NCBI GenBank assembly: GCA_003576845.1
Contig: QEVJ01000058.1
Location: 1-34,117, forward strand
From: Planctomycetota bacterium
GTDB lineage: Bacteria; Planctomycetota; Planctomycetia; Pirellulales; PLA5
Length of the DNA stretch: 34,117 bases
Direction: 5' to 3'
Shown here: positions 10,824 to 27,102 of the stretch, one piece after another
Numbering within the stretch: position 1 is the first letter of the stretch
How the letters are laid out: each line of letters begins with the position of its first letter
Notes under the pieces: model-generated
What the model was told of the DNA's origin: nothing
The model's database searches: none
What the model saw: the letters and a program-made list of their open reading frames with translations, nothing else
Program-made: the position numbers and the translations under genes

Positions 10824-12341
10824 CTACCAGCGGACTTCCACGCCCGCGTTGAAACCGTAGAGCAACAGATACGTTTGATCGAACTTCGAGGCCGGCGCGG
10901 GATCGCCCGTCGGGTTGTTGGCCGGCGGGAAGAACGTCGGGTTGAGGTTGCGGTCGATCTGATTGCCCGGCCGGGCGACCCGGTTAACGTATACGGCGTT
11001 GGCCCCGAGTTTCAGGCTGATGTAGTCGTTTACCTGAAACGCGACGGCCATTTCCGCTTCCGGCATAAGCGTGAACGCATTGCGGACCTGGCTGCCGATG
11101 TTCAGCCCGGGCTGAGCAAGGAAGCCGCCGAGGCCAGGACTTTCGACGAAGCCCAACACGCCGCCGGGGTTGACCGCCGTATTGCCGCGGACGTTCACGC
11201 TTTGCTCCGTGTTGCCGATGCCGAGCTTGCCGAGCATGTTGAGCGACCAGCGACCGCGATGAATCTCGCCGGACAGGCCGACCTCGCCGCCGTGAAAATC
11301 GTTCGTGGCGTCGAACTCGTCGACGCGGCGGATCAGCGTGCCGGGGGCCACAAGGCCGCCGGACGGATTGTTGAGCGTCACCACGTCGGTGATGTTGATG
11401 CCTTCGTCGAGCCGGAAGTAACGATAGCCGAGCAGCCAGTCCGTGCGGATGTTTCGCTCGAAATCGGTCCACAGCACGTGCCGCCGGGTGAGGGCGAACG
11501 AGTGGATGTCGCTCGATGCCGACACGTTGATCGTGCCGTCGACGTCGTAAGTAAACGGACCCTGGCCGAGGTCGATCGTCAGGGCCGGGCCGGAGATGAG
11601 CGAAGCGTCTTCGGCGCCGACCGCCGTGTTGAAGAACGGGCGCGCCAAGAGCGGACCGGCGGCGGTGCTCGATGCCGTGAAGTTCGCTTCCTGGCCGTTG
11701 AGGCCGAAGTATTCCGCCTGATAGCCGACGAACTGGCCATCGACGGCCCACCACCCGAGGCGCGCCCGGCCGCCGTCGCGCCAATCGCCCGCCAGCGATC
11801 CGTCGCCGAACAGGATCTCCGCGCCGGGCAATCGGCCGGCGACCGCGGGAGCGGTTCCGACCGGGCTTTGAGTGACCAGCGCCGGTACGTCGTAACCACG
11901 GGCGCGCCAACGAAGATAATCGACTTCCGCCCACCAGCGGTCGTTCACGCCCGTGAGTTCTTCGTGCAAATCGCCGGTCATGCCCGCGGTCGGCGAGAAA
12001 TCGCGCGTGTCGCCGGGACCGCAATCGGGTTCGAAGGTCGTCACGACGTTTTGCCATTTGCCGTCGATCGGCAGCGGCTGAGCGCCGGCACGGGAAACGC
12101 GTTCAGAGGCCACGGGCATGGCGCCGATCGTCTTCGAGCGACCCGCGAGCGACTCGGTGTGGCTCGCGGCTGACGCAGCCCCTTGGTTCAGGTCCACGGC
12201 CGGCTGCTGCACGGTCGCACGCGGCGTGGGCGCCGGGGCGTCGTAGGCTGAGGGCGTCTCGCCCATCGCCCCCGAAATGCTCGCCAGCCAGGCAAGGCAA
12301 GCCAGCAGGATTCGCTCACGGGTTCGTCGTGCAATCATCAT
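10824..12341 (-). CDS. BBP7-family outer-membrane beta-barrel protein
   Basis: A 505-residue secreted protein. The start at ATG 12341 gives a signal peptide (residues 1-27, ending SISGAMG); the frame is open further upstream but without signal-like sequence. Residues 130-505 have the layout of the planctomycete BBP7 family: NDRWWAEVDYLRWR (133-146), LLGYRYFRLDEGI (303-315), then alternating amphipathic strands such as RWSLNMLGKLGIGN. The last residue is Trp in a terminal strand (YGFNAGVEVRW), as expected for recognition by the BAM complex. Residues 28-125 are a Pro/Ala-rich linker. It presumably sits in the outer membrane; whether it is a pore or a structural protein is not known. Confidence 0.88.
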   Translation of the reverse strand: MMIARRTRERILLACLAWLASISGAMGETPSAYDAPAPTPRATVQQPAVDLNQGAASAASHTESLAGRSKTIGAMPVASERVSRAGAQPLPIDGKWQNVVTTFEPDCGPGDTRDFSPTAGMTGDLHEELTGVNDRWWAEVDYLRWRARGYDVPALVTQSPVGTAPAVAGRLPGAEILFGDGSLAGDWRDGGRARLGWWAVDGQFVGYQAEYFGLNGQEANFTASSTAAGPLLARPFFNTAVGAEDASLISGPALTIDLGQGPFTYDVDGTINVSASSDIHSFALTRRHVLWTDFERNIRTDWLLGYRYFRLDEGINITDVVTLNNPSGGLVAPGTLIRRVDEFDATNDFHGGEVGLSGEIHRGRWSLNMLGKLGIGNTEQSVNVRGNTAVNPGGVLGFVESPGLGGFLAQPGLNIGSQVRNAFTLMPEAEMAVAFQVNDYISLKLGANAVYVNRVARPGNQIDRNLNPTFFPPANNPTGDPAPASKFDQTYLLLYGFNAGVEVRW

Positions 12342-12783
12342 GTCGCGGGCCCACCCTGACGGTTGCGGAAGCGCAGTGGGAACGTCTGCGCGTTGTATGG
12401 ATCGTGTCCACCATATCGTTTCGGCAGACTGGGAAAAGAATTCCAATCTTTCGGATGATTCCGATAAAACGGGCACGCCGGCGGTGCTAGCGATCGCCGC
12501 GATGGGAAGCGATTCCGGGGCGAAGGACGACGGCGCCGTTGTGCGGTGACGCGGCGGAAGTCGCCAAGCCTCCCTAGAATCCATCGTTTGCCGATTACTG
12601 CTTATCGCCGACGCTCGGAAGTCTGGGTAGCTTCCGATACGGCTTGCAAGAGAACCTGGTCAAGCTGGGAAGACTTGCATCGCGACTCGTACCGAGACAA
12701 AACGACCGGGGAGCCCCGTATCCGGGCGTCCCGGTCGCGAGTCGCAAAGGCAAGATTTCGCTCGGGGCGGTGCGGCGCGTTGG
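12342..12783. other. intergenic region, 442 bases, no gene seen
   Basis: This stretch lies between the BBP7 and PEP-CTERM genes, both on the minus strand, and should contain the BBP7 promoter. I could not find a convincing pair of boxes. It is relatively AT-rich around 12430-12470, where a small palindrome TCGGATGATTCCGA (12451-12464) lies about 110 bases before the BBP7 start. A larger nested inverted repeat occupies 12682-12745. Confidence 0.6.
12682..12745. repeat. nested three-stem inverted repeat
   Basis: The outer arms GCGACTCG (12682-12689) and CGAGTCGC (12738-12745) enclose CGACCGGG (12703-12710) and CCCGGTCG (12730-12737). These in turn enclose CCCG/CGGG (12715-12718 and 12723-12726). 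All three stems are perfect. The right arms of the outer and middle stems abut, leaving only a 13-base bulge on the left. It lies 38 bases past the stop of the PEP-CTERM gene and may terminate or stabilise that transcript, but no T-run follows. Confidence 0.6.
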
Positions 12784-13638
12784 TCAGGCCGCGCGTCGCC
12801 GTCGCCGGCGATATGCCGCATACGGGCAGACCACGCCGGCGACCGCCAGCATTGCCAGCGAACTGGGCTCGGCGACCACGGCGCTCTGCGAAAACCGCTC
12901 CGAGCCGATCAGCGTCATGTCGTGCATGGACTGCATGACCATCGAGGTGCCGCTGGCGCCGTTGGCATCGGTCCCATAAAGATTGTTCACGAGGCCGTAT
13001 TCGAAAAACCGCACCGGCGTCATGGCGAACTCGGTGGGAACGCCGCCGAGCGCATCCTTGTAGACGACCGACACCAGGCCGTTGTCGTCGCGGTTGCCGA
13101 TCATCGAAAAGTCCTTCTGCCAGAGCGAATTCTCGTAGTCGGCCAGTTGCCCCGTCGCCGTGTTCGCAATCCGCACCTGGAACGTGAACGAATCGCCCGG
13201 GTTGAGTCCCTGCGGAAACTCGACCTGCAAGAACGGTTTCATGTCGCCCATGAAGGCCATATCGCTGTGCGAGGTAATCGTGGCCACGCCGTCGTCGGGC
13301 TGCTCGAAAAACGCGAACGAGTCGAACATGAATCGCGGGTCGCCGAAGTCGATCCGCACACTGTGCATCTGCATCGCGCTCGTCGCATCGTTCGTAATCC
13401 GGATGAACGGCGCGCTACGCAGCGACGCGTACTGAATCGGCGTCTTCCACATGGCATAATGTTGGGCCACCGGATCGTTCGGGTTCAGCATCAAGTTGAG
13501 ATCCTGACCGAAGTCGATGTGGTAGGCGACCGTCGGGTTGGAAGGCCCTTGGGCGCGGGAGACATCGCCGACGAATGCCCAAGCAGCGGCGACCGCCAGG
13601 GCGAGCGCGATTCTGGTCTTGCCGTTCACGTTGTTCAT
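12784..13638 (-). CDS. PEP-CTERM-sorted secreted protein
   Basis: A 284-residue exported protein. ATG 13638 gives a signal peptide of about 29 residues (NGKTRIALALAVAAAWAFVG, ending VSRAQG); an ATG ten codons upstream is in frame but would precede it with polar sequence. The C-terminal 31 residues are a PEP-CTERM sorting tag: AEPSS (E257-P258), a hydrophobic helix (LAMLAVAGVV) and a run of six arginines. Such tags are processed by an exosortase and usually accompany surface or extracellular polysaccharide. No exosortase is in the window. The body (30-250) has no motif I recognise; it is beta-rich, with phrases such as TFQVRIANTATG. It is followed by the nested inverted repeat. Confidence 0.88.
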   Translation of the reverse strand: MNNVNGKTRIALALAVAAAWAFVGDVSRAQGPSNPTVAYHIDFGQDLNLMLNPNDPVAQHYAMWKTPIQYASLRSAPFIRITNDATSAMQMHSVRIDFGDPRFMFDSFAFFEQPDDGVATITSHSDMAFMGDMKPFLQVEFPQGLNPGDSFTFQVRIANTATGQLADYENSLWQKDFSMIGNRDDNGLVSVVYKDALGGVPTEFAMTPVRFFEYGLVNNLYGTDANGASGTSMVMQSMHDMTLIGSERFSQSAVVAEPSSLAMLAVAGVVCPYAAYRRRRRRAA

Positions 13639-14219
13639 GGTGTTGTCCGTTCGCGTTGCAATTACCATCGCCGGTCGATCGTCCGCGGCGAAGCATGGAT
13701 TGGCTGGTGATTACGTCCGAGTGGCAGTGCGGCCGTCGATGCGCAGCGTAAGCGCGCACGATGGGCCAATTCGTTGTCCAAAGGGCGAAGAAACGCCGGC
13801 GCAAAGCGGGCGAACATGCAGACGCACCCCAGCGCAGCGCGCACCCCGATCGCTGCGACGGCCCAACGGGTCGCGCCGCGATACGGACGAGGCAATGCAG
13901 CGAGAAGGGTTCGCCGACGACTCGAAAGCCGATGGGCGATGGTCGCATCGCATCCACGCGAAGCGGAAGCAGCACCGCCATCGCCGGCCGCGACCTAGAG
14001 CAATTCAAGCCGAACCACGCGCATCCGAATGCGCAGCGTCATCCGCCAGGGGAAGACGGTCCGGCAAAGCCAAGTCTACGGACAGCGAGTCACAGTAGCT
14101 GCGCCGCGAAACACGCGTGCGGCGCCGACTTGGTCTTCATGAGAACGAACTCTCGAAAAGTCGAGGTTTCCGCCGGGAAATCCGCAAAAAACGGCTACAG
14201 CTTCCCGACGACTCAACTT

Positions 14220-14314: not shown

Positions 14315-15511
14315 CTAACCCGCCCGGCGGCTGAGCGAGAAGATCGGGAGCAGCAGCGACAGCCCGATCGTGCCGACGACGACGCCCATGATGCCGATCA
14401 TGATCGGCTCGATCAGGCTCGTGGCCGTTTTGAGCGACGTTTCGACCTCCCGGTCGTAGAACGTGCTGACCCGCTTGAGCACGTCGTCGAGCCGGCCGGA
14501 CTGCTCGCCCGACGCGATCATCTGCACGAGCGTCGGCGGAACGAGCGGGTGGTTGGCGAGCGCCTCACAAATCTGTTCGCCTCCGGTGACGCGCTGCCGG
14601 ACCTCCTCCCACAGGTCGCGGTAGAGGTAATTCCCGGCCGACTCGCCGCAGAGCCGCAGCGAATCGAGCGTCGACACGCCCGCGCCGATCATCGTGCCGA
14701 GCGTGCTGATCGAGCGGCTCAAGATGATTTTGCGAAAGAGCGGCCCGAGCATCGGCAGGTTCAACAGCGCGCGGTCCCATGCGCGTTTGCCGGACTCCGT
14801 TCGCTTCCACATGACCAGCCCGACGATCGAACCGACGACGACGATGAGCCAAGCGTACCAATACTCTACCAGCACGTGAGACGCCGCCATCATGAACTCG
14901 GTGATTTGCGGAAGCTTCACGCCCTTGCGCGAAAACAGCGGCGTGAACTTCGGCATGATGAACGTCAAGAGAAAGATCGTCACGGCCAGCGCGAGCCCGG
15001 CAATGACGCACGGATAGGTCATCGCGGCGCGGATTTTCGCCCGGGCTTCCATCCGGGCGCGGAGATAATCGGCGACCCGATCGAGCATTTCGCCGAGCGT
15101 GCCGGAGGCTTCGCTGGCGCGGACGAGCGCGACGTAGGTGGCGTCGAAATACGCGGGGTGGTTTTGCAGGGCGCTCGAGAAATCGCTGCCGCCCTCGACC
15201 GACGTTTGCAGCGACATCAGCAACTGCTTCAGCTTCGCGTTCTGCTCTTGCGAGATCAGGCCCTGCAGGGCCGACGAAAGCGTGATGCCCGTGTCGACCA
15301 TCACGGCCAACTGCGTGGTGATGTTGGCGATGTCGCGGCGCGACACCCGCCCGCCGAGCAGCGGAGCCGCGTCGTCGGCCTCGTCCCCAACGTCGAGCAC
15401 CGTATAGCCGTCGCGGCGAAGCTGCTGCGTGGCGTCCGCGGCGTCGAGCGCCGAGATCTTGCCTTCGATGATCTTACCGAGCGCGTTGCGGGCTTTGTAG
15501 ACGTAAGCCAT
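14315..15511 (-). CDS. gspF: type II secretion / type IV pilus inner-membrane platform protein GspF (PilC)
   Basis: A 398-residue polytopic membrane protein of normal length for the family. It begins with the conserved YVYKARNALGKIIEG. Two T2SSF domains follow: about 58-180 (TTQLAVMVDTGITLSSAL, then SGTLGEMLDRVADYL) and about 265-390 (TLGTMIGAGVSTLDSLR, then SGEQSGRLDDVLKRV). Membrane helices lie near 167-187, 219-236 and 367-392. GspF is the rotor-like platform that the ATPase GspE acts on to add or remove pilin subunits. AGGAG precedes the ATG at a good distance. It is the last gene of the operon, 57 bases after gspE, and structured DNA follows its stop. Confidence 0.95.
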   Translation of the reverse strand: MAYVYKARNALGKIIEGKISALDAADATQQLRRDGYTVLDVGDEADDAAPLLGGRVSRRDIANITTQLAVMVDTGITLSSALQGLISQEQNAKLKQLLMSLQTSVEGGSDFSSALQNHPAYFDATYVALVRASEASGTLGEMLDRVADYLRARMEARAKIRAAMTYPCVIAGLALAVTIFLLTFIMPKFTPLFSRKGVKLPQITEFMMAASHVLVEYWYAWLIVVVGSIVGLVMWKRTESGKRAWDRALLNLPMLGPLFRKIILSRSISTLGTMIGAGVSTLDSLRLCGESAGNYLYRDLWEEVRQRVTGGEQICEALANHPLVPPTLVQMIASGEQSGRLDDVLKRVSTFYDREVETSLKTATSLIEPIMIGIMGVVVGTIGLSLLLPIFSLSRRAG

Positions 15512-15568: not shown

Positions 15569-17338
15569 CTATGCCTCAAGCGACGCCAGGTTGTGGGCAT
15601 CCGCGGACTCGCGCCCCGGAGCCGCGCAGGCCGTGCCGACGATGTGGAACACCTCTTCGACCGTGGTAATTCCTTCGCGAACCTTGCGGAATCCGTCGGT
15701 CCGCAGCGTCAACATGCCGTGCTCGAGCGCGATCGTGCGCATCCCGCTGATCGTCGGGTTGGTCAAGATCACGTCTCGAAGTGCGTCGCTGATGACGAGC
15801 AACTCGTGGACGCCGATGCGGCCGCGATAGCCCGTGTTGCGGCATGCGCGGCAACCGACGCCGCGGAAGAACTGCGGAACCTCGCAGCCCATCCGCTCGA
15901 CGGCCTTGCGCACGTTGCGCGTCGGCTCGTAGGGCTGGCGGCATTTTGGGCAAATCCGCCGCACCAGCCGCTGCGCCAGCACCATGTTGAGCGCGGCGCC
16001 GATCAGATACGGCTCGACGCCCATGTTCACGAGCCGAGTGATCGCCGAACAGGCGTCGTTCGTGTGCAGCGTGCTCAGCACGAGGTGGCCGGTGAGCGCT
16101 GCCTGGATCGCCGTGCGGGCCGTTTCCTCGTCGCGGATTTCGCCGACCATGATGATGTCGGGGTCCTGCCGCAAGATCGTCCGCAAGGCTTTCGAGAACG
16201 TCAGTCCAACCCGCTCCTGGACCTGAAATTGGTTGATCAGCGGCAGGTTGTATTCGATCGGGTCCTCGACCGTGCAGATGTTGTTTTCCATCGAGCTGAT
16301 GGCGTTGAGCGCGGCGTAGAGTGTCGTCGATTTGCCGCTGCCGGTCGGACCGGTGACGAGCACGATGCCGTTCGGCGACTCGATCTGCTCGCGCAGGCCC
16401 GACAGGATGTCTTCGGCGAAACCCAGGTCTTCGAGATTCAGCGATACGCTGCGGGTATCGAGCACGCGAATCACGGTCTTTTCGCCGCGGTTGGTCGGGA
16501 ACGTGCTTACGCGGAGGTCGATCCTGCGCCCATCGAGCAGCACGTTGACGCGGCCGTCCTGGGGCAGCCGGCGCTCGCTGATATCGAGCGCTGCCATGAC
16601 CTTGATGCGGCTCGTTACGGCGTTGAGCAAGTGCAGGGGCACTTCGAGCGCTTTGTACAATCGCCCGTCGACGCGATTGCGAACGCGCATACACCGCTCG
16701 GCCGGCTCGATGTGAATGTCGCTCGCGCCTTCCTTCACCGCGTTGAAAATGATGAAGTTGACGAGGCGAATCACCGGATTTTGCCCGGCGATTTCCTCGA
16801 TATCGCCGATGTCTTCGATCGCGTCTTCGATCAGGGTGACTTCGGCGGCGTCCGAATCTTCGATGATGTCGTCGATGACGAACACCTTCGAGTTCGGCAG
16901 CGTCGTAATCATCCGCCGGATGTCTTTGCCGCTCGACGCGACGATCTGCACTTCGAGCTTCGTGAGCGACGACAATTCCTCGATGAGGAATAAGTTCGTT
17001 GGCTCGCTCACCGCGACGGTCAGAATGCCGCGGACGACGAACAGCGGCAGCACCAGGTTCTTCTCGATATACTCGCGCGGGATGACGTCGAGCGCGCCCG
17101 GGTCGAACAGCCGCTGGTCGAGCTTCGCATAGGGCACGCGGTACACGACCGCAAGGCACTCGATGATCTGATCTTCCGTGCACAGATCCAAATCCGTGAG
17201 GATTTCGCCGAGCAGTCGTCCCGGGCTGCTCTGCCGCTGGTATTCGAGCGCCGTCTCGAGCTGTTCGAGCGTCAGGTGGCCTTTTTCGACCAGGACGTTG
17301 CCCAGTCGCGGCGCGGAGGTCGTGTGCGTGAGCGCCAT
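15569..17338 (-). CDS. gspE: type II secretion / pilus assembly ATPase GspE (PilB) with MshEN-like N-terminus
   Basis: A 589-residue cytoplasmic ATPase that powers pseudopilus assembly. The ATPase core is complete: GPTGSGKST (Walker A, 330-338), DPDIIMVGEIRD (Walker B, 392-403), the Asp and His boxes (NICTVEDPIEY, LVLSTLHTND) and four zinc-binding cysteines (C463, C466, C496, C499). Residues 11-34 (RLGNVLVEKGHLTLEQLE and on to Q34) follow the c-di-GMP-binding MshEN motif exactly: RLG, then L-V-x-x-G, and a closing A-L-x-x-Q. The second motif copy (LGEILTDLDL, 43-52) has Asp where Gly is usual. The intact Walker boxes and its neighbour GspF argue for an assembly rather than a retraction motor. 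It lies 72 bases after the STAS gene. Confidence 0.95.
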   Translation of the reverse strand: MALTHTTSAPRLGNVLVEKGHLTLEQLETALEYQRQSSPGRLLGEILTDLDLCTEDQIIECLAVVYRVPYAKLDQRLFDPGALDVIPREYIEKNLVLPLFVVRGILTVAVSEPTNLFLIEELSSLTKLEVQIVASSGKDIRRMITTLPNSKVFVIDDIIEDSDAAEVTLIEDAIEDIGDIEEIAGQNPVIRLVNFIIFNAVKEGASDIHIEPAERCMRVRNRVDGRLYKALEVPLHLLNAVTSRIKVMAALDISERRLPQDGRVNVLLDGRRIDLRVSTFPTNRGEKTVIRVLDTRSVSLNLEDLGFAEDILSGLREQIESPNGIVLVTGPTGSGKSTTLYAALNAISSMENNICTVEDPIEYNLPLINQFQVQERVGLTFSKALRTILRQDPDIIMVGEIRDEETARTAIQAALTGHLVLSTLHTNDACSAITRLVNMGVEPYLIGAALNMVLAQRLVRRICPKCRQPYEPTRNVRKAVERMGCEVPQFFRGVGCRACRNTGYRGRIGVHELLVISDALRDVILTNPTISGMRTIALEHGMLTLRTDGFRKVREGITTVEEVFHIVGTACAAPGRESADAHNLASLEA

Positions 17339-17410: not shown

Positions 17411-17737
17411 CTAGCAATAACTCTTCACGGCGTCGATGACGCTGCCGAAGACTTCGAGTTGCTGGTCGAGGCGGGTCATTTCCAGAATTTTTCGGTTGTA
17501 TCGGTTGGCGGTGGCGATCTTCACGTCGCCGCCCAGTTCGCGCAGGCGGTCCTGTGCGTCGAGAATCGCTTCGAGCCCTTGGCTGGCGATCAATTCGGCT
17601 CCGTCGAGGTCGAACACGACCTGGTTCCGTTCGAGGCTCGCTAAGTACCCGGCCAACGTGTCTGCCGCGTCGCCGGAGAGCTCGTCCGGAGCGTGGACGA
17701 CGACGACGTCGCCGAAGATTTCGATGGGAAGGCTCAT
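17411..17737 (-). CDS. STAS-domain protein (anti-sigma-factor-antagonist type)
   Basis: A 108-residue single-domain protein with the STAS fold: a beta-rich N-terminus (IEIFGDVVVVHAPDELSG), the central strand VVFDLDGAELIASQGLEAIL and the helix LDAQDRLRELGGDVKIA. Ser52 in ASQG is at the place of the serine that is phosphorylated in SpoIIAA/RsbV (usually DSSG). The usual partner, an RsbW/SpoIIAB-type kinase, is not in the window. ATG 17737 is preferred to an in-frame TTG at 17755. It lies between a receiver-only regulator and gspE, all on one strand, so it probably takes part in regulating the secretion machine by protein-protein contact. This role is inferred from position only. Confidence 0.85.
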   Translation of the reverse strand: MSLPIEIFGDVVVVHAPDELSGDAADTLAGYLASLERNQVVFDLDGAELIASQGLEAILDAQDRLRELGGDVKIATANRYNRKILEMTRLDQQLEVFGSVIDAVKSYC

Positions 17738-17788
17738 GCGGCGGATGCTCGACAAGGGGTGGGTGCGTGGATCGCGGACCGTGAGCGG

Positions 17789-18280
17789 TTAAACGGGCGC
17801 CGCGCGGCACGAAGTTTGACAGGCGCCCGTTGCCAGTACGTCTTGAGCCATCCGCAGCAGTTCGCGCGGGCTGAAGGGCTTGCTCACCACCGCGGCTACG
17901 CCCGAATCGGCGTGCAACGTTTCGTGAGACAACTCGAATCCTTTGGCCGTGAGCATGATTACGGCGAGGTTCTTGACGGCAGGCGTGGCGCGGATTCGCT
18001 CGACCAGCTCGATGCCGCTCATGTTCGGCATTTGGCAATCGGTGACGACGAGGTCGGGACAGCGGCGTTCGATTTCCTGCCAGGCTTCGAGTCCGTCGGT
18101 CGCGGAGCGGACGTCGAATCCGGCTCGCGAGAACTTGATCTCCGCGGCCCGTAGGATGTGCACGTCGTCGTCGCACAGCAGAACGGAAGGCCGCGGCGGT
18201 GGCGGCGCCGCCGAGCCGCCTCCGGACGACGCTTTCGCCGCGAGAGAAGACAGCCGTTCGGTATCGGATTTGCGCGTCAT
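17789..18280 (-). CDS. receiver-only response regulator
   Basis: A 163-residue protein. After a Ser/Ala/Pro-rich leader of about 31 residues, residues 32-155 form one CheY-like receiver domain: acidic pocket D37-D39 (VLLCDDDV), phospho-acceptor D81 (VVTDCQMPNMSG), T111 (VIMLTAKG) and K134 (VSKPFSP). There is no DNA-binding or enzymatic output domain, so the signal must leave by protein contact. ATG 18280 is chosen over an upstream in-frame start because the upstream part overlaps the kinase gene and is not conserved-looking; AGGTTCC precedes it. It lies 25 bases after the histidine kinase gene, its likely phosphate donor, and 51 bases before the STAS gene. Confidence 0.93.
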   Translation of the reverse strand: MTRKSDTERLSSLAAKASSGGGSAAPPPPRPSVLLCDDDVHILRAAEIKFSRAGFDVRSATDGLEAWQEIERRCPDLVVTDCQMPNMSGIELVERIRATPAVKNLAVIMLTAKGFELSHETLHADSGVAAVVSKPFSPRELLRMAQDVLATGACQTSCRAAPV

Positions 18281-18305: not shown

Positions 18306-19829
18306 TCACTCGGCGGTTTGCGCCAATGCGGGTTGAAGCGCGTCGCGATCCGCGGCAATCGGCGTATGCGCCGACCGGGCGAGCATAAAGTGGAACGTGC
18401 TGCCTTTGCCGAGCGTGCTCTCGACGGCGAGCGTGCCGCCGTGCACGTCTTCGACGATGTGTTTCGCCAGGGCCAATCCCAGCCCCGTGCCGGCGGCCAT
18501 CTTCTGATCCTTCTTCACGCGGTAGAACTTCTCGAATACGCGCTGGCAATCTTCCGGCGACAGGCCGACGCCCGTGTCGGCGACGTCGACTTGAACCTGG
18601 TGGCCGTGCAATCGGCTGCGGACCGTTACCGTGCCGCCCTCCGGCGTGTACTTCACCGCGTTCGAAAGCAGATTGATCGCCGCTTGCAGGATCATGTCGC
18701 GGTCGGCAAACACGCCGAGATACAGTTCGCTGAGGTCGGAGACGAGCGTAATGCGGCGTTGTTCGGCCGCCGGTGTGACGACGTGCATCGCCTCTTCGAG
18801 CAGCTCGTTGAGCGATAGCGTCGTTTTGTGCACCTCGACCACGCCGGCTTCGATCCGCGCCAAGTTGAGCAGGTTATCGACCAGCCGCTGCAAGCGGTCG
18901 GCCTGGCTGTTGATGACCTGAAGGTACTCCTCCCGGGCCGCGTCGTCGTCGACTTCGTTGTCCGCCAGCAATTCGACGTAGGCCATGATGCCGGCCAGCG
19001 GCGTCTTGATCTCGTGGCTTACGGACGAAACGAACTCCGCATTGCGGCGCTGCAGGTCCTTGAGGCTGTCGATCTCGCGGAGCACGGCGACGGCGCCGTG
19101 CGGCGCCGACTCGGAGGTTCCAATGGCAAAACCGCGCGCCGTTGCCGAGTACCAGTGCGTGCAGCCGCCGGCGTCGCAGAGTTCGACCTCGCACGACCGG
19201 CCGGTGAGCGATTTACGCCGCCGGGTTTCGCGGAGCAGCTCGACTAACTGCTCGCACTTGACCAGTTCGTCGAGCGGCCGGTAGTCGGCGGGATCGCCGG
19301 TGAAGCCGAAAAGCTGCGTCGCGTGGGCGTTGCTGATCAGGACGTCGTCGAATTCGTTGACGGCGACGATCGGTTGCGGCATCTCGGACAGGATGTGTTC
19401 GAGATACTCGGCCCGCTGCGCGTTTCGCTGGGCCCGCATTTCGGCCGTGGCGCGGGCCAGCTCCGCTTCCTGGGCTTTGGCTGCATAATCGGCCAAAGTC
19501 AGATGGACCTGCTCGAAGACCTCGCGCCAGGCGTCGCTGGCGTCGAGCGTCGGCACAGCGCCCGAGGCATTGTCGGCAAGCGTTCGCGGATCGATGTGGC
19601 AGAGAACTTCAAGTTGCCGCTGAATCGACCGGCGGGCATTCTGCTGATTGCGCCACACCACCGCGGCGACGGCGATCGCGATCGTCACGCTGCCGCCCAA
19701 TAGCGCGGCACGAAACGACGACGCATGGCCCCCCGCCGCCGCAGCCTCGGTCAACCACGCCAGCGCAAGCGCCGACCAGGCGACGCAAGCAGCGAGCGGC
19801 AGCGCGAGACTGAGCTTGGAGCGGAACAT
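18306..19829 (-). CDS. membrane-bound PAS sensor histidine kinase
   Basis: A 507-residue sensor kinase. Two membrane helices (about 9-28 and 42-60) bracket only a short external segment, so sensing is probably in the membrane or cytoplasm. A coiled coil (105-145) leads to a PAS domain (about 143-255) and then to the HisKA dimerisation helix with SHEIKTP (phospho-acceptor H272). The ATP-binding domain is complete: NLLSNAVKYTP (386-396), DTGVGL (418-423), FEKFYRV (432-438) and GTGLGLAL (447-454). It should phosphorylate the receiver protein encoded 25 bases downstream. It begins 36 bases after the TPR lipoprotein gene, inside the secretion operon, which makes a regulatory role in secretion or pilus assembly likely though unproven. 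Confidence 0.95.
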   Translation of the reverse strand: MFRSKLSLALPLAACVAWSALALAWLTEAAAAGGHASSFRAALLGGSVTIAIAVAAVVWRNQQNARRSIQRQLEVLCHIDPRTLADNASGAVPTLDASDAWREVFEQVHLTLADYAAKAQEAELARATAEMRAQRNAQRAEYLEHILSEMPQPIVAVNEFDDVLISNAHATQLFGFTGDPADYRPLDELVKCEQLVELLRETRRRKSLTGRSCEVELCDAGGCTHWYSATARGFAIGTSESAPHGAVAVLREIDSLKDLQRRNAEFVSSVSHEIKTPLAGIMAYVELLADNEVDDDAAREEYLQVINSQADRLQRLVDNLLNLARIEAGVVEVHKTTLSLNELLEEAMHVVTPAAEQRRITLVSDLSELYLGVFADRDMILQAAINLLSNAVKYTPEGGTVTVRSRLHGHQVQVDVADTGVGLSPEDCQRVFEKFYRVKKDQKMAAGTGLGLALAKHIVEDVHGGTLAVESTLGKGSTFHFMLARSAHTPIAADRDALQPALAQTAE

Positions 19830-19865: not shown

Positions 19866-20783
19866 TCACCGCCACGTTGCATACCGGGGATCGAGCTCGG
19901 CCGCCTTGGCAAAGTGCCGTTCGGCGTCTGCGGTCTGTCCCAGCCGGCGCAACGTAGCGCCTAACAAAAAATAGGACAGAGGATCGCTAGCGTCCAAAGA
20001 AACCGCTTTCGCCAAAACAACTTGCGCTTCGCCGCACGCGCCCCTTCTATAGTGGCAAACTCCCAAGGCGCGCAGCAGCCGAATGTCTTCGGGCGCCTGT
20101 GCTAACGCGGCCGAGAGGAGTTGCACCGATTCTTCCGTGTCGTTGCGTTGTAACGCAGCCGTAGCCGCCGCGAGCGTGCCTTCCACGTCGCGTGGCGACG
20201 GTCGTTCCGTCCATTCCGCCTGCCGCACCGCGGCGTCCGTCGGGACGATCGTTTGCGCCGCCGTCTGAAAGCTGAGGCGATAGACCTCGTTTTCCGGCTC
20301 GCCGTCGAGGGCAAGCTGAAAGCTCGCCAGGGCCTCGTCCGAACGCCCGAGGGCTTCGAGTATCAAGCCTTCGACGTGCCGGGCCGCCGGATCGTTCGGC
20401 GCTCGCTCGAGGACGAATCGTGCCTGGTCGAGCGCTTGTGCCGGTTCGTTCGCATCGAGCAATAACTCCGCCAACGACAGCCGCGCCGGGAGGAACGCCG
20501 GATTGCGGGCGAGAATCGTATCGAGCGTCTTGCGGGCTTCGGCGACATCTCCGCATTGGAGCCGCCCAATCGCCGCCTGATGTTGGGCCGCGTCGCGACG
20601 GGCCTCGAAGTCGCGCAAGACCTGCGCTTCGCGAGCCTTGCGATTGGCATGCACGTCTTCACTGGTGCCGGCGCGTTCCGTGACGCTCGCGCAACCGCTC
20701 AGTAGCAGCAAAGCAAACAACCATGCCGCGGACCGCGCCATTTTGCGCTGTCGGTGCCACCGCGCGATAGATGTCGCGTTCAT
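19866..20783 (-). CDS. TPR-repeat lipoprotein, possible pilotin-like factor
   Basis: A 305-residue lipoprotein. The ATG at 20783 overlaps the secretin stop as ATGA, which fixes the start and implies translational coupling. An in-frame ATG at codon 15 would give a more typical signal (MARSAAWLFALLLLSGC). The lipobox cysteine is C31. The rest consists of tetratricopeptide-like helix pairs: about 66-145 (AAIGRLQCGDVAEARKTLD, LARNPAFLPARLSLAELLLD), 146-180, and 205-305 (LGVCHYRRGACGEAQVVLAK, LGATLRRLGQTADAERHFAK). TPR lipoproteins such as PilF/PilW act as pilotins that bring the secretin to the outer membrane. Its place directly after the secretin suggests such a job; that is inference. Confidence 0.9.
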   Translation of the reverse strand: MNATSIARWHRQRKMARSAAWLFALLLLSGCASVTERAGTSEDVHANRKAREAQVLRDFEARRDAAQHQAAIGRLQCGDVAEARKTLDTILARNPAFLPARLSLAELLLDANEPAQALDQARFVLERAPNDPAARHVEGLILEALGRSDEALASFQLALDGEPENEVYRLSFQTAAQTIVPTDAAVRQAEWTERPSPRDVEGTLAAATAALQRNDTEESVQLLSAALAQAPEDIRLLRALGVCHYRRGACGEAQVVLAKAVSLDASDPLSYFLLGATLRRLGQTADAERHFAKAAELDPRYATWR

Positions 20784-22963
20784 CGTGCGGCTCCCTGCCC
20801 GGCTTGCGGCGGCATGAGCGGGCGCATCGCCCCGGTCGTTCCGGCGTCGACGGGATGCTTGAGCGGAAATGGCGGCTGCCCCAATTCGTCGACCAACCAC
20901 GGCGCGAGCAGTTCGCCGTCGAGGGGGTGCAGATTCGGCGCCACGCGCGGCGGATGCACGTCGGTATGATCGCCCCGAGCGTTGTTCGACGTGATATCCG
21001 ACCGCAAGTCGATCGCGGCGCGGTTGAGCGGATCGAAGTGAATCGACAAGTTGATGAGCCACAACGCCTTGTCCTGGTCGCCCTGGCTCCAGGCGCGCTG
21101 CGCCTGATGGAAGTAACGCCGGCCGAGATGCCGCTTGCCGAGCGGACTGAGCTTGTCGGCATAGACCATGTGGCGATGGTGAAACTCGCGGGCCGCCTTG
21201 TCGCCCTGGATGCCGATTTCCGGTTCGTAAACGATGTGCGGCGTAATGAGCACGATGATCTCGCGGCGTTCCAGCGATTGCGTCGAACGGCGAAATGCCG
21301 GCCCAATCCAGGGCAGGCTGCCGAACAGCGGCACTTGCGTCATCGAGTTGGTCATTTCGTCGCGGATCAAGCCACCGATGACGATCGTCGAACCGTCGCG
21401 GACCATCACGTTCGACGTCACCTTGGTGACGTCCTTGTCCGGCAGCGTCAGGCCTTGCTCCACGCGGACCGTGCCGGTCGAGAGCTCGGGATGGACTTCG
21501 AGACGGACGGTGCCGTCTTCCGAAATGTAAGGGCGAATCCGCAAGAACGTGCCCACGTCGAGGAACTTGACGCTCTGGGTTGACGCCGTTTCCGTTTGCG
21601 TCGTGTCGACGTAGCCGAGCTGCGCGCCGATGTGAATTTCGGCCCGCTGGCGATTCAAGCACAATACCCGCGGCGTGGCGATCACGTTCGCGTCGCCGAT
21701 CGTTTCGACGGCTTCGAGGAACATGGCCAGATTCGTATCGAGATAGCCGAACTTCAGGCCGCCGTCCTCGAAGCTGATTTGGCCCAACGTGTTGAGCGGC
21801 GATCCCGTCGCCAGACGGACGTGGTCGTTGTTGCGGAGGAACTCGAAGTCGACGCCGAAGCGATGCTCGTCGTCGAGCTTCACGCTGAGAGTCATCGCCT
21901 CGATGGCGACTTGCGTGGGACGGCGGTCGATGCGGGCGACGACCTGATCGATCATTGCCAGCACGTTCTCATAGTCGGTGACGATGACGGTTTCCGCTCC
22001 CGCGTAGTCGTCTCCGCCGGCGGCGGTGTCGTCGGTCGCGATACCGGCCTTGGGGGGCGAGTTTGCCTTGACCTTGCCCACGGAGGCTGTAAGTAGAGGC
22101 GTGATCAGCAGTTCGAGTTCGCGGGCGCTAGCGTAGTTGGGATGGTAGACCCGCGTGTTGACGCGGTCGCTGGCCTGGTCCATCGCCCGGAAATCGTCGC
22201 GCGTGCCGACATAGATGAACTTGCCCTCGCGCCGCCAAAGGTAACCGGCGCTTTTGACGATCACGTCGAGGGCCTCTTCGATGCCGACGTTCGGCAGCGA
22301 AGCCGTGACCTCGCCGGTCACGCTCTTGGCGGGAATGATATTCAGATCGCCCTGGCGGCTAAGGACTTCGAGCACGTTGCGCAAATCGCTCCCTTGGCAG
22401 CGAAGCGTGATGCGGCCGTCGCCTTCCTCGGCAAGTTGGGGCGTGGTCGCCGCAGTGGTCGCTTTGTCGGCCGTAGTCGTAGCAGCGGATTTCGTGGCAG
22501 CGGCATCGCTCGGGACCGGCGAGACTTCTTCGGCGCTTTCGTCGTCCTCCGCGGCCAGGCGACCGCCGGGCTGTGCCGTCGAATCGGCCTGCGTGGCCGA
22601 GGCGACGAGCGCCGCTGGCGGCGTCTGGCTGGCCTTAGTCAGGTTGCCGATGATCTCGACCAGCGGCTTGAGGAGTGCATCGTCTGGCTTGGGCGCCGTG
22701 GCGGGAACGGCCGGTGCCGGTCCGACAACTTGTTGCGTAACGGCGGGCTGCACCGGCGTTTCCAGCGGCGCACCGTTGCGCAATGGGTTCGCGTTTTGAC
22801 TTGGCGCACCCGGCGTCGCAGTCGCCGGCGTGGCCATCTCGTCGTCGCCCGGAATTTCCGCCACGGCGGCAAGGTCCGGTTCGATCGCAACGAGCGCGAG
22901 TGCAACGCCCGCGCCCGCCGCGGCGAAGAGAAAGATCAGAATCGAACGAGCGGTCGTGCTCAT
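20780..22963 (-). CDS. gspD: type II secretion / type IV pilus secretin (GspD/PilQ) with C-terminal TPR-like extension
   Basis: A 727-residue outer-membrane pore protein. Residues 7-27 are a signal or membrane anchor, and 30-180 an Ala/Pro/Thr-rich linker. Residues 184-255 form the STN/N0 domain (ITLRCQGSDLRNVLEVLSRQ). Residues 270-345 form an N1-like domain ending VIVTDYENVLAMIDQVVARI. The secretin core is about 350-580, with ANVIATPRVLCLNRQRAEI, VRDGSTIVIGGLIRD and VPLFGSLPWIG. Unusually, 604-727 continue past the core with a TPR-like helix pair (FHQAQRAWSQGDQDKALWLI, 618-637) and a Pro-rich tail. AAGGATGG precedes the ATG. It follows the PilP/GspC-like gene by 46 bases and overlaps the TPR lipoprotein gene. 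Confidence 0.95.
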   Translation of the reverse strand: MSTTARSILIFLFAAAGAGVALALVAIEPDLAAVAEIPGDDEMATPATATPGAPSQNANPLRNGAPLETPVQPAVTQQVVGPAPAVPATAPKPDDALLKPLVEIIGNLTKASQTPPAALVASATQADSTAQPGGRLAAEDDESAEEVSPVPSDAAATKSAATTTADKATTAATTPQLAEEGDGRITLRCQGSDLRNVLEVLSRQGDLNIIPAKSVTGEVTASLPNVGIEEALDVIVKSAGYLWRREGKFIYVGTRDDFRAMDQASDRVNTRVYHPNYASARELELLITPLLTASVGKVKANSPPKAGIATDDTAAGGDDYAGAETVIVTDYENVLAMIDQVVARIDRRPTQVAIEAMTLSVKLDDEHRFGVDFEFLRNNDHVRLATGSPLNTLGQISFEDGGLKFGYLDTNLAMFLEAVETIGDANVIATPRVLCLNRQRAEIHIGAQLGYVDTTQTETASTQSVKFLDVGTFLRIRPYISEDGTVRLEVHPELSTGTVRVEQGLTLPDKDVTKVTSNVMVRDGSTIVIGGLIRDEMTNSMTQVPLFGSLPWIGPAFRRSTQSLERREIIVLITPHIVYEPEIGIQGDKAAREFHHRHMVYADKLSPLGKRHLGRRYFHQAQRAWSQGDQDKALWLINLSIHFDPLNRAAIDLRSDITSNNARGDHTDVHPPRVAPNLHPLDGELLAPWLVDELGQPPFPLKHPVDAGTTGAMRPLMPPQAGQGAAR

Positions 22964-23807: not shown

Positions 23808-24365
23808 TTAATCGGAGTTGGCTGCTTTATCGGCAAACACGACCAATTTCGACTCAAACCGCACATGTCCCGCAGGTTCCCGCGCCGGGGTTATCACCAC
23901 GTCTTTTACCCAAATTGTCGCGGGCAACTTTTCGATATTCACCAGCGCCGCCGCGACGTCGGCATGAGTTCCTTCGAGGACGAGCGCTATCGGCCGCTGT
24001 TCGATGGTCGAAAGCCCGACGGGAGACTGCGGCTCGAAGCGGGTAACCGAGACTCCGACCTGCCGAACGGCCTGATGGACTTCGCCGAAAAACGCGCCGG
24101 CGTCGGCCGAATCGGGCGTAGCCGTCCGCCAGGCGTTGACGTAGTCCACCGTCGCGCGGCCTTGGGCGTTGAGTCGCTCGGTTTCGGCGACGAGCCGCGC
24201 GGCGTCGGCGATGAACGCCCGCCGCTCGGCCGTTTCGCGGCGAAGCTGAGCCGTTTCTTTGCCGTAGGGAATGTCGATGAAAACGCAATAGGCGACCGCT
24301 GCGGCGACCAATCCGGCCGTCGCCCCCCAGCGATCGAAAACGTCGATCAAACCAGTGAATCTCAT
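23808..24365 (-). CDS. PilO-like (GspM-like) pilus/secretion assembly protein
   Basis: A 185-residue bitopic protein: a membrane helix at about 16-34, a coiled coil (36-75: QLRRETAERRAFIADAARLV) and a ferredoxin-like domain (about 85-180, with VGVSVTRFEPQSPVG and VNIEKLPATIWVKDVVI). This is the layout of PilO and GspM, which pair with PilN/GspL in the inner-membrane alignment complex. The ATG at 24365 overlaps the stop of the PilN-like gene as ATGA. Sequence similarity to characterised PilO proteins is weak to the eye; the call rests on architecture and position between pilN and pilP equivalents. Confidence 0.8.
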   Translation of the reverse strand: MRFTGLIDVFDRWGATAGLVAAAVAYCVFIDIPYGKETAQLRRETAERRAFIADAARLVAETERLNAQGRATVDYVNAWRTATPDSADAGAFFGEVHQAVRQVGVSVTRFEPQSPVGLSTIEQRPIALVLEGTHADVAAALVNIEKLPATIWVKDVVITPAREPAGHVRFESKLVVFADKAANSD

Positions 24366-25171
24366 CGGATGCTCATCGCGGTTCGATTTGCTGGCGCTTC
24401 GGTCGAAGCGTCCACTCGTGCGCGCGCCAGTTGCGGCTTGGGCGCCGCTTCCGATGCGCCCGGTTGGCCGATGCCCGGACGGACCACGGCGCGGGCCTGA
24501 AATTGCGACAGCGGCGTCGATTTGCGCGCGGCAGACGTTTCGCGCTGCAGCGACGTCACTTCCGCTTGGACGAACACGTCGCTTGCGGCCAGCCGGCGGA
24601 TGTAGTCGTAAGGCGCCGCGCCGTCGAGCGCCTCGCCGCTCAGCAGCACCACCACCCGCTGGTTGTCGTACTCCTCGCGGAGCCGCGCCAAATCGCGCTG
24701 CGGGTCGGGCGTTTGAGATTCGGCCTTGTCGGGCGGAGCGGCCGGATTGCGCACCTGTGGCGCTGCGCTATCGCGGTTACGCGCCGTTTCGCGGACGATC
24801 TTCAGTTCCGTCAGCCGCATTGTGTCCGGCATCGGGCCGGCGATTGCCGAGAGCGTTTGCGAGGTCGTCCACGGATGCCGCAAGTAGGTAATCAGATCCG
24901 CTTCGAGGTTCGCCCGCCGGAGCCGCTCCTTGGCGGCTTGCCAGGCTTTTTCGTTGAGCACGGCCGTCTGATGCGGCGCGGACAGAATATCGAAATTGTG
25001 TTGCGCGGCGCGACGATCCAGGACGCGATAGATCCACGCGCCCGACAAGAGCAGCACGCCGCCGACGAAGATCACTGCCCGCCACCGGCGATCGCGGCGG
25101 CGCGCGGTCTGCTGCCGGTAGCTGGCCGGCAGGAAATCGAGTTGGACGACGGTCAGCGGCTGCATGGCCAT
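24362..25171 (-). CDS. PilN-like (GspL periplasmic-half-like) assembly protein
   Basis: A 269-residue bitopic protein. The cytoplasmic N-terminus contains LDFLPASYRQ (11-20), which matches the INLLPxxYR-type motif by which PilN binds PilM. A membrane helix follows (about 31-50), then a coiled coil and a periplasmic ferredoxin-like domain (about 125-230, including VVVLLSGEALDGAAPYDYIR). The C-terminal 40 residues are Ala/Pro-rich. The start could be ATG 25171 or ATG 25165. It follows pilM by 30 bases and overlaps the PilO-like gene by 4, as in pilMNO operons. The 30-base gap before it contains part of a tandem 14-bp repeat. Confidence 0.82.
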   Translation of the reverse strand: MAMQPLTVVQLDFLPASYRQQTARRRDRRWRAVIFVGGVLLLSGAWIYRVLDRRAAQHNFDILSAPHQTAVLNEKAWQAAKERLRRANLEADLITYLRHPWTTSQTLSAIAGPMPDTMRLTELKIVRETARNRDSAAPQVRNPAAPPDKAESQTPDPQRDLARLREEYDNQRVVVLLSGEALDGAAPYDYIRRLAASDVFVQAEVTSLQRETSAARKSTPLSQFQARAVVRPGIGQPGASEAAPKPQLARARVDASTEAPANRTAMSIR

Positions 25172-25213
25172 GTTCGATTCGCAAAGTTCAATTCATGGAG
25201 TTCAATTCATGGA
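25172..25213. repeat. tandem 14-bp repeat across the pilM stop
   Basis: GTTCAATTCATGGA occurs perfectly twice in tandem (25186-25199 and 25200-25213). A third, diverged copy (GTTCGATTCGCAAA, 25172-25185) abuts the PilN-like start. The last four codons and the stop of pilM lie in one copy. A duplication by slippage is the simplest explanation; it changes the spacing between pilM and the next ribosome site. Confidence 0.85.
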
Positions 25214-26374
25214 GCGAAGGGCTAACCCCGCCGCCACGTCCCATTGCGAGCGGTGCACGAGCGGGAGCGATGTTTGCAGCGTTCGTAGCGGGTCGCCGAC
25301 TTCGCATCGCACGTCGAGCCGCGCCGTTATCGTCTCGGCCAGCGATTCGTGGGCCTCGCCGCCGCCGAGGACGATGCCCGATAGCGGTTGCCCGCGGAAC
25401 GTCACGCTGTGGTAGCGAACGCACTTGCCGAGTTCGCCCAAGAACCGTTCGACGACGGGCCGGGCCGCTTCGTCGATGCTCTCGGACACTTCCGGATCGC
25501 GCTGGTCCGCGCGGCGTTCGCCGTTGTACCGCCGCAGCGAAATTGCATCCGCCAGCGACATGTCCAGATGCTGGGCGACGCTTTCGTCGAAGTGCTTGCC
25601 GCCGATGTCGAGCAGGCGGGCGAACAGCACGTCGGCGCCCTGAGCAATCACGACGAACGTATTGCTCATCCCAATGTGGACGAACATCGCGCGGCGCCGG
25701 CAATCTTCCTCGCGGCGATACTGACTTACATAGGAGCGCAAGATCGCCGTCGGCGCCACGTCGATCGCTACCGGCCGCAAGCCGGCCGCTTCCGCCAGGC
25801 GAATCTTGCGGTAGATCGCCGGACGATGGCACGAGAGCAGCGTAATCTCGCGCAATACCGCGTCGCCCTGGCGGACGTCCGCCCCGTCGAGATAGCGAAT
25901 CTCGGCCTCGTGAATCGCGTAGGGAATGCGGGCGGCGGCTTCCTGTTGCACGAGCCGATCCATATCCGCGCCGACTTGCTTCGCGAGCCGGACGTTCGCC
26001 AGCAACAGGTCGTGCGCGTCGAGGCACAGCACGGCGTCGCGGCCGCAAAACCGCCGTCCTTCGAGTGCTTGCGTAAGCGCGGCCACGATCTGCCTGTCTT
26101 CCGCCGATTCGGCGGTTTCGCCGCCCGCCGGTCCTTTCTCCGGTCGCGGGGGCTTCGACGTGCGGTCGGACGCCTCGCGCTCCTTGGCGGAGTGGCCGGA
26201 CAACGAGGATTCGGTTTTTGCCACGAAGGCCTTATCCGCCGGCGACGGAACGTCCCAGCGCACTGCGTCGATGACCGTCGACCGCCGGTCGTCGAGTTGA
26301 ATCAGCTTCACCGAACGCGGACTGATGTCCACGCCGATCGGTCCGGCCGCACGTCGGGGAAGCAAGCGAACCAT
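25202..26374 (-). CDS. pilM: type IV pilus assembly protein PilM (actin-like ATPase)
   Basis: A 390-residue cytoplasmic protein of the PilM/FtsA actin-like fold. Residues 12-27 (PIGVDISPRSVKLIQL) are the N-terminal phosphate-1 strand pair. About 106-215 hold the conserved EAAARIPYAI (145-154) and the DVAPTAILR strand. VHIGMSNTFVVIAQG (232-246) is the phosphate-2 region, and GIVLGGGEA (333-341) the adenosine-binding loop. Residues 50-95 are a charged insert not typical of PilM. ATG 26374 is chosen because the fold begins there; the open frame upstream is compositionally non-coding and no strong ribosome site is visible. PilM recruits PilN and the assembly ATPase. It starts 119 bases after the GspH/PilE-like gene. 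Confidence 0.9.
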   Translation of the reverse strand: MVRLLPRRAAGPIGVDISPRSVKLIQLDDRRSTVIDAVRWDVPSPADKAFVAKTESSLSGHSAKEREASDRTSKPPRPEKGPAGGETAESAEDRQIVAALTQALEGRRFCGRDAVLCLDAHDLLLANVRLAKQVGADMDRLVQQEAAARIPYAIHEAEIRYLDGADVRQGDAVLREITLLSCHRPAIYRKIRLAEAAGLRPVAIDVAPTAILRSYVSQYRREEDCRRRAMFVHIGMSNTFVVIAQGADVLFARLLDIGGKHFDESVAQHLDMSLADAISLRRYNGERRADQRDPEVSESIDEAARPVVERFLGELGKCVRYHSVTFRGQPLSGIVLGGGEAHESLAETITARLDVRCEVGDPLRTLQTSLPLVHRSQWDVAAGLALRSMN

Positions 26375-26493
26375 GATGCGAGTTACGCCGAACGGAAAAA
26401 ATGCAAAATGCGATATGAAGAATGCAGAACGGCCCTGCCGCGGTTGAACGTGCGCGCCGTCCGACACGATCGCATTGCCATTTGGCTTCGACT

Positions 26494-27102
26494 TTAAATC
26501 GCGGCTACATCCGCGGGCAGCGCCAGTCCGGCCGGCGGCGTCCCTTGCACGTCGCCGATCGTCGTCAGGCCGCTTACCGGATCGACGGTGACGCTGATAT
26601 AGCGTAGCCCGTCGCCGCGTCCGATCAGCAGCCAAACGACCGTTGCGTTGCTTTCCGTGGTTTGACCCAACGGGCCGAATTCGAGGGTCGTGACGGTGGT
26701 CGGCGTTGTGCCGGCCGTGCGCACGCCCATCAGTCGCACGTTGCCCGAGAGCGAAGGCATGTCGTCGAGGCCGAAAACGAGTTCCGCGGCGTTGGTGGAA
26801 TACTTGACCCGAGCGCCGACCGGCAAAACGTTGAGCGCGACGTCCGTGCCCGAGTGCCTGAGGACGTAGCGGTTGCCGGCCGTGTCGAACGTCAGCGTGT
26901 ACTTACTGTTGTACGTGACTGCCAGGCTGCGGGCGTAGGCGATGTCCTCGGCCGCGATCTCGGCGGCGGCGCGAAGCTGGCTGTTGGCCGCGGGCGTTCC
27001 GCCGACGATCGCCGCGGCGGCGAGGATGCCGATGATCGCCACGACGATCAACAGTTCGAGCAGCGAATAACCGGCGCGGCGAGACATGTTGCGGCGACCC
27101 AT
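26494..27102 (-). CDS. GspH/PilE-like prepilin
   Basis: A 202-residue prepilin. The leader MGRRNMSRRAG ends at G11 and is followed by YSLLELLIVVAIIGILAAAA, a class III signal with Glu at mature position 5, so a prepilin peptidase should cut after G11 and methylate the new N-terminus. The body (about 45-190) resembles GspH more than GspG: it is long, starts LRAAAEIAAEDIAYARSLAV and lacks the calcium-site tail of GspG. It could nevertheless be the main subunit, as no better candidate lies in the operon. The start is ATG 27102 or ATG 27087. The gap to the preceding small gene is 4 bases, so they are coupled. Confidence 0.85.
   Translation of the reverse strand: MGRRNMSRRAGYSLLELLIVVAIIGILAAAAIVGGTPAANSQLRAAAEIAAEDIAYARSLAVTYNSKYTLTFDTAGNRYVLRHSGTDVALNVLPVGARVKYSTNAAELVFGLDDMPSLSGNVRLMGVRTAGTTPTTVTTLEFGPLGQTTESNATVVWLLIGRGDGLRYISVTVDPVSGLTTIGDVQGTPPAGLALPADVAAI

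Follow-up and report, generated by a model that had tools for sequence, protein, structure and literature searches.

The N-terminal domain of the secretion motor ATPase GspE of a Pirellulales bacterium is predicted, from sequence comparison and a structural model, to be a c-di-GMP receptor with the MshEN fold and a one-sided pocket, and we put the probability of this reading at roughly 0.7. The motor itself is probably switched by c-di-GMP, because the predicted pocket is present and related genomes encode c-di-GMP enzymes beside gspE. The gene lies in what we call the window, that is, the whole stretch of DNA analysed, 34,117 nucleotides of contig QEVJ01000058.1. A previous sequence-only reading had already proposed that the motor is under second-messenger control. 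That proposal gains from motif I contacts that are invariant in the clade, from the MshEN fold and from the cassette enzymes of relatives, whereas its argument from Asp51 did not survive and the poor second motif weighs against it.

GspE is a motor ATPase with a predicted MshEN domain

GspE is a GspE/PilB-type motor ATPase of 589 residues (P0001, 15569..17338, minus strand) made of an MshEN region and a T2SSE ATPase domain, the latter matching PF00437 with E 1.5e-138 in a Pfam profile search. Both equivalog profiles scored it below their cut-off, at 598.9 for type_II_gspE (cut-off 630.25) and 592.9 for type_IV_pilB (cut-off 675.65). The MshEN profile PF05157, which is found in five proteins of the whole genome, covered residues 66-145, i.e., the C-terminal subdomain of the MshEN domain (16904..17143, minus strand), with 56.5 bits against a curated cut-off of 23.1. 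Over residues 11-63, the MshE-related NCBIfam profile NF053729 ("c-di-GMP_motif") reached 55.4 bits (E 3.8e-15). As its cut-off is 38, the motif of GspE is far above chance. Searching the whole genome with this profile returned four matches, of which GspE was the best (60 bits; the others had 40, 37.3 and 36.3).

Residues 1-165 were modelled with AlphaFold2 using 84 related sequences (alignment A1, which took 84 of the 103 available, namely the 66 orthologs and 18 of 37 distant relatives), with a pLDDT of 89 and a pTM of 0.78. This model, a check that the sequence-only reading had itself proposed, supports the MshEN assignment, since it displays the four-helix N-subdomain and the alpha/beta C-subdomain of that fold. 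Its best match among solved structures was c-di-GMP-bound MshE (5htl_A, Z 17.6, 2.3 A over 140 residues). Next came c-di-GMP-bound crystal forms of PilF GSPII-B, including the Q218E and Q190E mutants (Z 15.7-16.2), and two non-binding domains scored lower, XpsE with Z 14.2 and GSPII-A, for which the structure is an NMR model, with Z 13.3. The AlphaFold model being ligand-free, this ranking informs on fold and not on binding. By profile and by predicted fold, the GspE N-domain is a member of the MshEN family that falls outside the strict two-motif definition.

Orthologs and the clade of cassette-type GspE

Within the order, 26 of 57 genomes carry a GspE ortholog with an identity of at least 69%, below which the best remaining match is at 46%. 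Scanning the named genomes gave 76 orthologs, or 66 once near-identical ones were removed. One sequence (L086), whose N-terminus is missing, was excluded from the N-domain analyses, and evolutionary rates were computed on 64 of the 66, two being left out for coverage.

The whole phylum was searched with a Phycisphaera relative (L088) as query, and 56 of 392 genomes gave strong matches. Flanking genes were examined for 32 of these 56, taking the strongest sister-group matches first, and L088 and L089 were added. In the resulting tree, the 98 cassette-type GspE rows formed one clade (support 1.0) comprising Pirellulales, a sister family from the window's class (f21) and Phycisphaerae. Pirellulales and f21 were grouped together (support 0.999), and the Phycisphaerae-type and f21 groups were separate. 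Monophyly was read from this 98-row tree, a FastTree support of 0.072 obtained after re-rooting being set aside. The 98 rows include near-duplicates (for example, L186 resembles L063, and L180 and L182-L185 belong to one genus), and the comparison group beside them consisted of 16 other sequences, 14 of them hand-chosen from the 37 distant ones. Two loci devoid of an HK/REC/STAS cassette, L177 and L189, both fell outside the clade.

Motif I is nearly complete and motif II is degenerate

The MshEN consensus, RLGxx(LVI)(LVI)xxG(LVI)(LVI)xxxxLxxxLxxQ, occurs in two copies separated by a five-residue spacer (PMC5013675, cited throughout from excerpts, as are PMC11731258 and PMC4624772). Residues 11-34 of GspE, RLGNVLVEKGHLTLEQLETALEYQ, match 10 of the 11 consensus positions, and we count the first 24-residue motif as complete on that basis. 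The interval 17237..17308 (minus strand), given for it by the sequence-only reading, corresponds exactly to residues 34 to 11. The accompanying description of a position-by-position fit, borne out by the 10 matches and by the NF053729 score, was slightly overstated, because motif position 11, a hydrophobic core position, is His21. Orthologs have Tyr (56/66) or Phe (8/66) at this sole departure.

Conservation in motif I was strong. Among the 66 orthologs, G13, L31 and Q34 were invariant and R11 was R or K in 64. The codon of Gln34, the final Gln of the motif (17237..17239, minus strand), underwent ten codon changes and no amino-acid change on the 64-sequence tree; it was the slowest-evolving site of residues 11-150, and its neighbours 32 and 33 were among the fastest. 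Of the 37 more distant relatives sharing the fold, 4 kept R11, 7 kept L31 and 15 kept Q34. As these residues are mostly lost there, the MshEN fold does not require them. Across the 98-row clade G13, L31, Q34, L42, G44 and E112 were invariant (98/98), and positions 27 and 62 were L, I or V throughout.

Motif II (residues 42-65, 17144..17215, minus strand) keeps L42, L43, G44, E45, L47 and L62, of which L42, G44 and E45 were invariant across the 66 orthologs. Its strict identity is 5/11, the departures being Leu42 (for Arg), Thr48, Asp51, Cys53, Ile58 (for Leu) and Val65 (for Gln), and it becomes 6/11 with Leu allowed at position 1, as the extended consensus does (PMC11731258). The spacer between the motifs is of seven residues (35-41) versus five in the consensus. 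The final Gln of a canonical second motif is replaced by Val65 (17144..17146, minus strand) and is absent from position 65 in all 98 clade members. Among the 66 orthologs this position was mostly E (51 sequences), with V in 7, G and A in 3 each, and D and S once each, and its rate was at the 65th percentile of the N-domain. An example of a Glu65 ortholog is that of Blastopirellula marina DSM 3645 (L105).

Asp51 (17186..17188, minus strand) does sit at the Gly position of the second copy, the one substitution that the sequence-only reading had picked out. The same reading missed Leu42, Thr48, Cys53, Ile58 and Val65, and its choice of Asp51 as the key deviation is ruled out: no more than 20 of the 66 orthologs have Gly here, against 26 with E, 8 with D and 12 with other residues, and on the 64-sequence tree the site ranks at the 94th percentile of the domain for evolutionary rate, so that this fast-evolving substitution is probably of no consequence. 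Judged from the alignments, the telling deviation of motif II is the loss of its final Gln at Val65, a change that is systematic.

Comparison with binding and non-binding MshEN domains

In MshEN, both Gln residues bind the ribose and phosphate of c-di-GMP rather than the base, selectivity for guanine comes from the backbone amides of the Gly-x pair, and cGAMP is bound weakly (PMC5013675). MshE of Vibrio cholerae (5htl) belongs to the same motor family as GspE and shares its fold, and GspE has a nearly complete motif I and both Gly-x contacts. MshE differs in that both of its motifs are full, each having its Arg and its Gln, and lie at the canonical spacing, whereas GspE has Leu42 and Val65 in motif II and the longer spacer.

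Thermus thermophilus PilF offers a closer view of what losing one Gln does. Aligning the two proteins placed PilF Q190 on Q34, L196 on L42, Q218 on Val65 and D266 on Glu112 (17003..17005, minus strand). Like GspE, PilF GSPII-B (8pdk) thus has Leu at motif II position 1; unlike GspE, it has Lys at motif I position 1 and Gln in motif II. Its KD for c-di-GMP was 6 nM for the wild type, 460 nM for Q218E and 950 nM for Q190E, and the double mutant did not bind (PMC11731258). The Q218E protein, which was crystallised with ligand according to the title of 9glg, is a laboratory version of the natural Glu65 of most GspE orthologs, the window having Val. In the C-domain, PilF Asp266, which contacts guanine-2 in the structure (PMC11731258), acts with Arg268, where GspE has Glu112 and Thr114.

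Binding by a secretion ATPase has a precedent in Pseudomonas aeruginosa PA14_29490 (HxrA), a T2SS-type ATPase whose N-domain binds c-di-GMP at 480 nM (PMC4624772). Of the T2SSE ATPases of V. cholerae and P. aeruginosa that were assayed, the excerpts name MshE and PA14_29490 as the only ones that bound. The excerpts of PMC4624772 describe no STAS/REC/cyclase cassette for PA14_29490.

Other MshEN domains do not bind, and GspE might be one of them: a degenerate fold with a structural role, for example in docking on PilM/GspL-like partners, its motif I helices serving as the partner surface. The N-domain of Xanthomonas XpsE (2d28) and PilF GSPII-A (9g1w) have the same fold and degenerate motifs as GspE, and both are non-binding. 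GSPII-A, whose motif I ends in His and whose motif II has 45% of the key positions according to the published excerpts, equals GspE in its strict motif II count. XpsE is reported to have lost binding and to have eight changes that include G11V, L29R, G40L, L54H, L58C and Q61V (PMC5013675), the last being the same change as Val65 of GspE, and it is non-binding in spite of retaining R9 and Q32. The average rate at position 65 is a further point for a structural role. Against c-di-GMP reception there also count the small number of T2SSE ATPases that bound and, in the window's own lineage, a cassette with no c-di-GMP enzyme and the rarity of GGDEF genes near the ortholog loci. Yet XpsE and GSPII-A lost further Gly and Leu contacts (GSPII-A lacks both Gln and the motif II Gly in the alignment), which GspE keeps or swaps for Ile or Val; it still has one Gln, the Gly-x pair of each motif and every cap, as Leu or as Ile/Val. 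We took loss of the motif Gly and Leu contacts as the mark of a non-binding MshEN domain, and G13, L31 and G44 are all present throughout the clade. From the alignments, motif II of GspE is no better than that of GSPII-A by plain count and is better by the contacts kept. A purely structural role would, moreover, leave unexplained both the clade-wide invariance of Q34 beside fast neighbours and the cyclase or phosphodiesterase of the cassette in relatives. We consider it unlikely, at odds of somewhat more than one in five.

It is much less probable still that the one-sided pocket is adapted to some other ligand, or to an asymmetric one, such as 3',3'-cGAMP or linear pGpG. The asymmetry itself is conserved, with Q34 kept and Gln missing from position 65 in every clade member, and HD-GYP enzymes that cut cGAMP are known. 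The weak binding of cGAMP by MshEN (PMC5013675) may be read in the same direction. However, the Gly-x pair that selects guanine is present in both GspE motifs (G13, G44), the missing Gln is one that contacts ribose and phosphate and not the base, and PilF Q218E retains c-di-GMP binding (PMC11731258). We thus keep c-di-GMP as the predicted ligand.

GspE belongs to a conserved HK-REC-STAS-GspE cassette

All genes of the secretion operon are on the minus strand. Downstream of GspE lies the inner-membrane platform protein GspF (14315..15511, PF00482). Directly upstream are a STAS-domain protein (17411..17755, PF01740, E 3.9e-10), a stand-alone response regulator receiver (REC; 17789..18280, PF00072, E 1.9e-23) and a sensor histidine kinase (HK) with a PAS-like region (18306..19829, PF00512 and PF02518). 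They are followed by a TPR protein (19866..20753), a secretin of the GspD/PilQ type (20780..22963, PF00263, E 1.6e-40) and PilO-, PilN- and PilM-like assembly platform genes (23808..26635). Prepilin-like genes are also found upstream of GspE on the same strand. Near the operon, we noticed a BBP7 beta-barrel porin family protein (10824-12584, PF07585) and a protein with no Pfam match (12784-13668) whose C-terminus resembles what we take to be a PEP-CTERM-type sorting signal.

The arrangement was scored in 51 ortholog loci with flanks, each gene being counted where the flank reached far enough. STAS adjoined GspE in 46 of 46 eligible loci, REC was present in 44 of 44 and HK in 41 of 41, the order HK-REC-STAS-GspE held in all 41, and GspF was downstream of GspE in 43 of 43. 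Ser58 of the STAS protein, which we take to correspond to the phosphorylated Ser of SpoIIAA-type antagonists, was kept in 49 of 50. This serine is in a DSxGL-type motif (ASQGL in the window), and a partner-switch adaptor on a secretion motor would be unusual. A search of the open-licence literature found no description of an HK-REC-STAS-GspE cassette or of a linkage between HD-GYP, STAS and type II secretion.

Relatives carry c-di-GMP enzymes between REC and STAS

In 20 of 22 Phycisphaerae-type loci, an HD-GYP protein with an intact HHExxDGxGYP signature is encoded between REC and STAS and in the same orientation as these (L088:8063-9604, and L158-L173, L175 and L188). All 12 of those scanned with Pfam matched HD_5. 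HDxGK and HPxxG were intact in all 19 motif-bearing proteins examined, and DxFDA matched in 18 of the 19, L164 having only a looser match. At locus L176 the signature of the HD domain was the variant HHERWSGGGYP and neither HK nor REC was matched, and locus L174 was without a slot gene. In the latter, a 278-residue ORF (L174:4297-5130) covers the tblastn matches to both REC and STAS, and Pfam finds only STAS in it; it is possibly a degenerate fusion.

In family f21, the same slot was occupied by a GGDEF cyclase with RYGGEEF at 6 of 8 loci, from two genera, and was empty at the remaining two, from another genus. These cyclases are of the GAF-GGDEF type (L180:5194-6693, L181:5098-6678, L183:5129-6649, and L182, L184 and L185); three were scanned with Pfam and the signatures of all six were read. 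As the Phycisphaerae-type and f21 groups are separate in the tree, the two slot enzymes would most simply represent two separate gains. Comparing the N-termini of the slot cyclase and of the slot HD-GYP protein gave no support for a shared origin (hhalign probability 10; best blastp E 0.012), both N-termini being no more than GAF-like. Cyclases and phosphodiesterases act oppositely on the same messenger.

Pirellulales loci, including the window, had no gene in the REC-STAS slot. GGDEF genes were near only 2 of the 51 ortholog loci of this order (L072 and L076, both confirmed as GGDEF), which by a rough estimate is about the chance level and no enrichment. At one of these, an HD-PAS-GGDEF protein lies upstream of the histidine kinase (L076:4828-7233). 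A single minus-strand EAL-like regex match was seen near another locus (L062). The window's genome contains nine GGDEF matches, six with an intact signature by pattern search, two EAL and four PilZ; to judge from the GGDEF matches, the host can make c-di-GMP. Matches to GGDEF were present in all 26 ortholog-bearing genomes, and the only one of the 57 genomes without any (G003) also lacks a close GspE ortholog.

A proposed mechanism and its meaning

We propose that motif I (R11, L12, G13, L27, L31 and Q34), together with L43 of motif II, would make up one entire half-site, which takes a guanine along with its ribose-phosphate. Motif II would retain the backbone contact to the second guanine (G44-E45) and the hydrophobic cap (L42, L12, I58 and L62) and would be without the Gln holding the other ribose and phosphate. 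The one-sided GspE domain would then act as an MshEN domain with half of its polar contacts, and we would expect specific c-di-GMP binding with an affinity in the sub-micromolar to micromolar range. With the ligand bound, the N-domain may sit differently on the motor hexamer, and in this way c-di-GMP would control whether the secretion pseudopilus is assembled.

The HK, REC and STAS proteins may form one control module with GspE, and in relatives this module would additionally include the diguanylate cyclase or the HD-GYP phosphodiesterase. The lineage of the window, having no slot gene, would read a c-di-GMP pool made elsewhere in the genome. Beyond this, we tentatively entertain, at about one chance in three, a closed local module, in which HK, REC, a STAS adaptor and an interchangeable c-di-GMP enzyme feed an MshEN sensor on the motor whose one-sidedness and lower affinity are deliberate. 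If this were true, some lineages would set the motor by making the messenger and others by destroying it, and Pirellulales would rely on the general pool of the cell.

To our knowledge, c-di-GMP binding has been demonstrated for few ATPases of type II secretion. The motors of the clade described here, which extends across the phylum, combine a consistently half-intact predicted pocket with an operon in which enzymes of opposite action have come to occupy a spare slot. This clade offers a direct way to test whether c-di-GMP signals locally to a secretion machine, and it could show what minimum of the two-motif MshEN site is required.
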